Shown here piece by piece: positions 4,679 through 30,467 of a stretch of 64,000 bases of DNA. The stretch lies in the NCBI RefSeq assembly GCF_964019845.1, contig NZ_OZ026465.1:372001-436000 (forward strand), written 5' to 3'. Both the position numbers and the translations under genes were made by a program. Source of the stretch: Spiroplasma endosymbiont of Labia minor (GTDB lineage Bacteria > Bacillota_I > Bacilli_A > Mycoplasmatales > Mycoplasmataceae). Within the stretch, counting starts at the first letter, position 1; every line of letters starts with the position of its first letter. The notes under the pieces were generated by a model. It saw nothing but the letters and a program-made list of their open reading frames with translations. It did not search any database and was not told the origin of the DNA.

Positions 4679-6520
<1,842 letters not shown>

Positions 6521-28041: not shown

Positions 28042-30096
28042 ATGAAAACTAATTTTAAACAAACTTCTGATTCTAATTGTGGAATTTCTGTTATTACAAC
28101 AGCTATAAATCATTTAACATCAAGAAATTTTTCACTTAATGATATTATTATAGATAATGAATTAAGTGATCATTGATTTTCTTTTGAAGAAATAAAAGAA
28201 ATAGTTGAAAGATATGATATCTATACTGTGGGTTATAAATCAAATTTTAGAGAAATAATAGATTGGAATAAAAATAATGGCTACATTTTGCTACCACAAA
28301 TGAAGTCGGTCAATCCCATTATGTATATATATTTGAAAAAAATAAATTTACAAAAGAATTTGAAGTTGCAGATCCGGCAAATAAATTCATTGTTTGAATG
28401 CTAGAAAACAAATTAGAAGCTATGTATGCTGGAAGAGTGTTAATTTTGAAGAAAAAACACAAGGTATATACAAGAAAATCTCCAAGAGATTATTTTAAAA
28501 AATATAAACCATGAGGCAGTTTGTTAAAGACAAAAAAGTTTTATCTTTTAATTACATTCATATTGCAAATTATGCTTAATGTTACATTATTATTTTTAAA
28601 TGATTTTGTAAGATGCTTCATGAATAATGTATCTATATTATTTATGGATAATTTGAAGTCAATTTTTATTGGTTTTTCGATAATATATTTCATTCACATT
28701 ATTTTAAACGGTATAATACAATTGATTTTGAAAAGTATTTCTAATGTAATTTATAGAGATGCAATAAAAATTTTTTTAAATTGATTTACAAATATTTCAA
28801 ATGAGGAATACGATAAAATTTCTTATGACTTATGACTTATGACTTATGACTTATGACTTATGACTTATGAATTCAAAAAATTGCGCAAATCAAAAAAATT
28901 ATTTCATTTGAAATATTTGTAATAATAAAAATTCCAAATGATTTTATATTTTCCATTTTAACATTTGTTGTATTTGCAAAATTAAAAATGGAAATCGCGC
29001 TATTTGCATTTTGTGAAATATTTTTAATATCATTATTATTTGAAATTAAAATAAAAAATAATATAAAATTGCTAGAATATGATCAAAAAAAAATTTAATA
29101 TAAAAATGCAAGATTTAGTATATGGGCAAAAATTTGTGAGAGCAAAAAAACATCAACAAATTATGAATAAACAAATTATGAGAGAATTTGATTCAATAGA
29201 ATCTGGTAATTTAAATATTTCAAAAAAATATTATTTCGAAATGTTATAAGTTCTATTATTCACAGAATAATGTTTTTGGTTGTTTTTATAATGTCATCAT
29301 TATGAATTGCAAAAAATGAAATATTGATTTCTGACTTAATTTATTTTTCATTATTGGGAAATTATATTGTTAATTTAAGTGATGACATTAAAGAAATTAT
29401 TATGTCAAAAATAGAAATTAATATATATTTAAATGAATTAACAATTATGTTTAATCAAAAAAAAGAAATTATAAAGAATAATGATAAAAAATTTTCAGTC
29501 TCAGAATTTTAAATGTTCGTAAATGAATTAATAACGTTGAAATATTAAAAATGAATTCAAAAAATATAACAAAAAATACATTTGTCTTTGGTATGAATGT
29601 AATTGGAAAATCTACAATGTTACAAATTATTGCAGGTCTATATAATAACTATGAGGGTAATATTGCTATTAATAATGACTTAGTCACAAATTTATCAAAT
29701 GAAAGCATAATTTATTTAGATCAATTTGATTATTTGTATGCAGGTAAAGTTATTGATAATTTTATGGATGCAAATTCAACTTTTAATTATAATTATTTTT
29801 ATGAACACAAACTTGATGAGTTAATGAATATGTATAAATTATCTTTGGAAAGCCCTATAATAAATAATGGATCAAATTTGAGCAAAGGTCAAAGACAAAT
29901 AATTTCTTTTTTATCACTCTTATTCATTGAAAGAGATATTTATATTATCGATGAATCGTTATCTAATGTTGAAGGCAAATTAAAAACAATGTTATTAAAA
30001 ATATTACTTGTTGAAAAGAAAAATAAATTGATAATATATTGTGATCATGACATGGAAAATATTAATTTATTTGATGATGTGTGAGAAATTAAATAA
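28042..30096 (+). pseudogene. Decayed C39-peptidase ABC exporter (bacteriocin type)
   Basis: Remnant of a peptidase-containing ABC exporter of about 680 residues, like the C39-ABC transporters known in mollicutes. The N-terminal C39 motif QTSDSNCGISVI keeps the catalytic Cys, and GQSHYVYIF supplies the catalytic His. Six hydrophobic stretches form the membrane domain; the ATPase has GMNVIGKST (degenerate Walker A), LSKGQRQ and IYIIDES. Reading frames must be changed at five places: near 28290, in the heptamer tract 28822-28870, at an A9 run 29085-29093, near 29236 and near 29510. Most are single-base losses or gains, so a full-length product is not made from this sequence. The last segment ends with TAATG, overlapping the next gene. 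Neighbouring genes are intact, which argues against general sequencing error. Confidence 0.85.
28822..28870 (+). repeat. Heptanucleotide tandem repeat (7 copies of CTTATGA)
   Basis: Seven exact, uninterrupted copies of CTTATGA. In code 4 all three frames through it are open (TGA is Trp), so copy number sets the downstream frame. Upstream exporter codons are in one frame and the continuing membrane helix in another; one more unit, or two fewer, would join them. Confidence 0.97.
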
Positions 30097-30467
30097 TGAA
30101 AATAAAAAATTGATTTTTATTAATATTTTCATTATTCATTTTATTATTATCTGTTATCGTGTTATTTTTTATTAATGTAGAAAATAATTTATCTGGAGTT
30201 ATTATTCATATTAATTTAGAAAATCAAGATGTATTATCATTCAAATTTTTAGAGAAAAAAGACATCCATTCTATTAATTTTATTAAACAAATTGTAACTA
30301 AATATAATGATAAAACATATATATTTTCAAATGAATTTGAAATTTATGATGAAACTATAGTTATTCGAAAATTCAATCACGAATTAGAAGATGCAACGAT
30401 GCTATCTGCATTAGCAAATGTAGGAGAAGAAAATATATTACAATATTTGCTTAAAGTTGTTTTTTAA
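30096..30467 (+). CDS. Small membrane-anchored partner of the C39 exporter
   Basis: Protein of 123 residues: an N-terminal hydrophobic helix (about residues 5-27) after MKIKNW, then an extracellular domain with beta strands (SGVIIHINLE, TYIFSNEFEIYDETIVIRKF). Unidentified. Its ATG overlaps the exporter's TAA (TAATG), so the two were translationally coupled and probably worked together, perhaps as an accessory export or immunity factor; this is inferred from coupling and topology only. The frame is intact although its partner is broken, so it may be a relic or serve something else. One TGA encodes Trp. Confidence 0.65.

Follow-up and report, generated by a model that had tools for sequence, protein, structure and literature searches.

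A frame-setting heptanucleotide array in a decayed peptide exporter gene: a probable private expansion rather than a working switch

Described repeat systems and the exporter locus

In Mycoplasma fermentans, the gene p78, part of an ABC transporter system, encodes a surface lipoprotein; a poly(A) tract at its 5' end makes it phase-variable, and reversible switching has been demonstrated (Theiss and Wise 1997, cited in passages of PMC2831843 and PMC3711429). Transcription of the Haemophilus influenzae adhesin genes hmw1A and hmw2A is controlled by a heptanucleotide tract, according to the passage of PMC4235727 that cites this work. Where repeats switch genes by changing the frame, they cluster towards the 5' end of the gene (Lin and Kussell, as cited in a passage of PMC4692102).

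We analyzed a stretch of 64,000 nucleotides (the window) from a Spiroplasma endosymbiont of Labia minor, a mollicute in which TGA encodes Trp and whose genome is a single contig of 984,411 bases with 26% G+C. A perfect array of seven CTTATGA units lies on the forward strand at 28822-28870 (Tandem Repeats Finder: period 7, 7.0 copies, 100% matches), within a gene for a C39-peptidase ABC exporter. As far as the passages cited above describe p78, the two loci share a mollicute host, an ABC transporter system and a repeat whose length sets the frame; unlike the p78 tract, ours is made of heptamers, sits mid-gene in a permease, is accompanied by four other frame breaks and is known from one genome. 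The hmw1A and hmw2A tract, as cited, has a seven-base unit too, but ours lies within the coding sequence of a broken gene. The exporter resembles the Mbov_0121 family (NCBIfam NF045998) and the PCAT1 type (PDB 4ry2) in domain order, motif order and family genome neighborhood, and differs from intact members in having a frame broken five times and an altered Walker A motif. Ordinary microsatellite expansion in a pseudogene likewise leaves a frame-changing array that is tolerated amid other inactivating indels and absent from orthologs, and no difference from it emerged among the features tested.

Unit number does set the reading frame at this locus. The tract holds the TGA codon of the exporter's invariant Trp. 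Because 7 is coprime to 3, every frame of the tract encodes the identical cyclic peptide, LMTYDLW, and all three frames are open, as seen in the code-4 ORFs at 28398-28922, 28801-29049 and 28832-29098. Coming from upstream, the homologous frame enters the array at the second codon position (codon 28821-28823); on the downstream side, homology resumes in a frame that starts at 28871. Joining the two requires 1 + 7n to be divisible by 3, that is, n = 2, 5 or 8 (n = 2 modulo 3); with the present seven units of 7 nt, the flanking frames are not joined. The preliminary description had reported seven exact units, three open frames and flanks in different frames that one unit more or two units fewer would join, and our analysis agreed with it on each of these points.

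Five frame changes in the exporter gene

The broken exporter gene spans 28042-30093 on the forward strand. Four of its pieces matched NF045998, which describes peptidase-domain ABC transporters of the Mbov_0121 (cleave_ABC_plasm) family, in order at profile positions 1-95, 114-250, 391-463 and 490-660; the curated cut-off of this model is 500 bits, and the intact orthologs likewise score below it. The C39, membrane and ATP-binding domains are present in the order of the family, which supports the original identification of a C39 ABC exporter. The gene does not have the single uninterrupted frame of about 650-700 codons that characterizes the family.

We reconstructed the frame path by searching all three frames with a profile of 27 intact orthologs, together with a frameshift-tolerant alignment; between 29080 and 29245 the alignment took a poorer path, and that of the profile was preferred. 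By ortholog comparison, the first part of the C39 peptidase domain, with its catalytic Cys, reads in frame 1 (28042-28290, forward strand, as for all segments). The end of this domain, carrying the His and Asp, and the first membrane helices follow in frame 0 and reach the tract (28293-28829). Past the tract, the membrane domain resumes with LWIQKIAQIKKIISF in frame 2 (28865-29080), continues with an intracellular segment in frame 0 (29082-29244) and ends with the last membrane helices in frame 2 (29252-29509), where the ORF at 29270-29509 produced the match to profile positions 391-463. The ATP-binding domain occupies frame 1 (29521-30093; Pfam ABC_tran, E 9.3e-16). The path 1, 0, 2, 0, 2, 1, with its later boundaries at about 29080, 29245, 29509 and 29520, contains five frame changes, one at the tract and the others near 28290, 29080-29098, 29245 and 29510-29520. 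The earlier count of four frameshifts besides the tract was therefore correct.

These four frame changes part the C39 Cys from its His and Asp and cut up the membrane domain. In the ATP-binding domain, the ABC signature LSKGQ and Walker B are intact; Walker A reads GMNVIGKS, having lost the middle Gly that 26 out of 27 orthologs keep at this position. We also considered whether partial products could be functional and dismissed the idea, because the C39 residues do not share a frame and the membrane domain is fragmented. The five frame changes, that at the tract included, support the view that the exporter has decayed.

The relative designated G047 carries an intact exporter, and its gene order matches that of the window across the locus: lon, rarA, a 245-aa ORF, a 147-aa ORF on the other strand, DJ-1/PfpI, the exporter, a small partner gene, ybeY, dgk, cdd, two membrane ORFs and era. 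This shared order confirms the orthology of the exporters, so that the window gene combines several lesions with an intact ortholog in a syntenic relative, as a pseudogene does. The neighbors lon, rarA, DJ-1/PfpI, ybeY, dgk, cdd and era are intact in the window. The small partner membrane protein (30096-30464, forward strand), recognized by synteny, by alignment and by a weak, below-cut-off match to NF045999, is still encoded by an open gene despite the broken exporter; the start of this gene overlaps the exporter's end, in the same position as in relatives. Its protein sequence diverges across genera, with a conserved C-terminal end (YLLKxxF-like).

Read across frames, the exporter shows 23-31% protein identity to single orthologs, and intact genes of two other genera compared with the largest ortholog genus average 27-28%. 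Because its divergence is about that of intact orthologs across genera, inactivation appears to have been recent, and the gene was probably maintained until fairly recently; 25 of the 30 columns that are invariant in orthologs are kept. This exporter is the only C39 match in its genome. Exporter loss recurs within the family, since 9 out of 60 family genomes lack any C39 match. Stop-interrupted C39 or exporter genes were also seen in genomes G011 (contig C1, 351501-351904), G017 (contig C3, 824625-826508) and G021 (contig C1, 1139109-1139432), and these appear to be independent losses.

The tract site in intact relatives and in its own genome

Four further genera of the family supplied the 27 intact orthologs, every one of which consists of one code-4 frame about 650-710 codons long. 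None of them (0/27) has a repeat at the tract site, where the longest period-7 run is at most 16 nt as against 49 nt here. The preliminary description had named repeat-free intact homologs as the observation that would count against it, and all 27 are of this kind. In the orthologs, the site contains an invariant Trp (27/27), usually encoded by TGA, in a stretch resembling EKFNSxSKEEWIKKL without length variation. In the window, EEYDKISYD precedes the tract, and LWIQKIAQIKK is read at the tract's end. When the tract was set to two units, both flanking frames aligned to all 27 orthologs without gaps, and the last TGA of the tract fell on the invariant Trp. Because the flanks align gaplessly at two-unit spacing, with the invariant Trp on a tract TGA, the ancestor likely held about two adjacent units (ISYDLWIQK). 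A DNA-level search of 40 relatives returned short matches only, mostly of low complexity.

The tract is located mid-gene, at what we take to be the first intracellular loop with the coupling helix of ABC exporters. It aligns with NSRKVGEIISRF of PCAT1 (4ry2), the closest solved relative in our search. In-frame arrays of five or eight units would place 7 or 14 extra residues in this coupling loop, and since they would be inserted at the junction of the membrane domain and the ATPase, a good on state from either number is unlikely.

Among the perfect arrays of the genome, the tract (49 nt) ranks fourth in length. The three longer ones (171 nt, period 15; 75 nt, period 21; 68 nt, period 15) sit within long open ORFs whose frame they leave unchanged, and the tract is the sole perfect array of more than 30 nt with a period that is not a multiple of 3. 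No CTTATGA array of at least three units occurs elsewhere in the genome, nor in any of 59 other genomes of the family, and the second-longest period-7 array of the genome measures only 24 nt; the tract is therefore not a chance occurrence. The genome has no set of similar tracts, unlike what is usual for users of contingency loci. MutS and MutL domains were not found in the genome, an absence that would ease slippage generally; mismatch repair is not expected to work well on 7-base loops. Single-strand DNA structure as a driver of expansion was tested, and no fold was found at the tract. Promoter-like sites were no more frequent than in shuffled sequences.

Other repeats were recorded alongside. 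A 15-base unit, AAAAAAGATAATGAT, is repeated 4.5 times at window positions 6449-6516 (genome 378449-378516), at the extreme C-terminal end of the dnaK ORF, and is frame-neutral. The longest perfect array of the genome (598307-598477; a 15-base unit, 11.4 copies) encodes an (HSEHN)n extension at the N-terminus of an ORF resembling a P-type metal ATPase. Arrays of units of about 147-150 nt, repeat-protein-like and mostly related to one another in sequence, lie at genome positions 248350-248826, 308408-308674, 522547-523077, 610304-610816 and 617612-618023.

Origin of the array

Taking these results together, we consider it probable that the tract arose when a short seed, lying in what is now a recent pseudogene, was expanded by strand slippage in this lineage alone, and that it is not a working switch. 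The ancestral exporter would have lacked the array, like its intact relatives, and would by homology have held about two adjacent units. Gaining about five units (35 nt) by slippage would have shifted the frame, and the array would persist because the exporter no longer needs read-through. Slippage had been proposed from the start and is supported as the likely origin. The count of seven units comes from one genome. A mutable tract that is still slipping should be perfect too, which counts against this explanation, and the 25 retained invariant columns indicate a gene that worked until rather recently and that could have been switching at that time.

One version of the expansion reading, quite possible although we would not call it probable, makes the expansion the inactivating event in a live exporter, with the other four frame changes coming later. 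About 89% of the genome is coding, which makes a random expansion likelier to start in a live gene than in a dead one of 2 kb, and the loss looks recent from the identities given above. However, nothing dates the tract relative to the four other breaks, and a substitution-free array fits a late origin equally well. The data are compatible both with the tract as the cause of loss and with the tract as a later hitch-hiker in a dead gene.

It is doubtful that the tract is the relic of a real phase-variable switch in which unit number turned the exporter on and off before decay. The frame does depend on unit number, and p78 offers a mycoplasma precedent, at least as described in the passages cited. 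Set against this are the orthologs without a repeat, the single locus with no sister tracts, the five- and eight-unit on states that burden a conserved loop, the four other frame breaks, and a mid-gene position where switching repeats, in the cited account, favor the 5' end. For these reasons we did not find support for the claim that the tract bears the signature of slipped-strand phase variation. Of the two outcomes offered in the preliminary description, a relic switch is now the weaker option, and a cause of the loss remains.

Still less likely is a recently arisen heptanucleotide contingency locus that goes on slipping in a peptide exporter, other strains of the species having copies that are intact and still switch. 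In the present genome a functional on state is excluded, because four independent frame changes persist at any unit number, and no array was found in intact homologs, at a second locus or in the 59 relatives. Least probable is a sequencing or assembly artefact with a wrong unit number and false indels: two non-tract frame changes do lie near A runs (around 29085-29093 and 29222-29228), but the genome is a single contig with 97.89% completeness, the uninterrupted adjoining ORFs make five indels in 2 kb peculiar to the exporter, and tandem insertion of 7-nt units is an unusual read error.

The tract is thus a clean example of a frame-setting repeat that alone is not evidence of phase variation. 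When the exporter gene is compared with its intact relatives, a likely ancestral unit number emerges and the array stands out as a private expansion in a dying gene. The window exporter adds to the recorded losses of a peptide exporter that is retained by most of the family.
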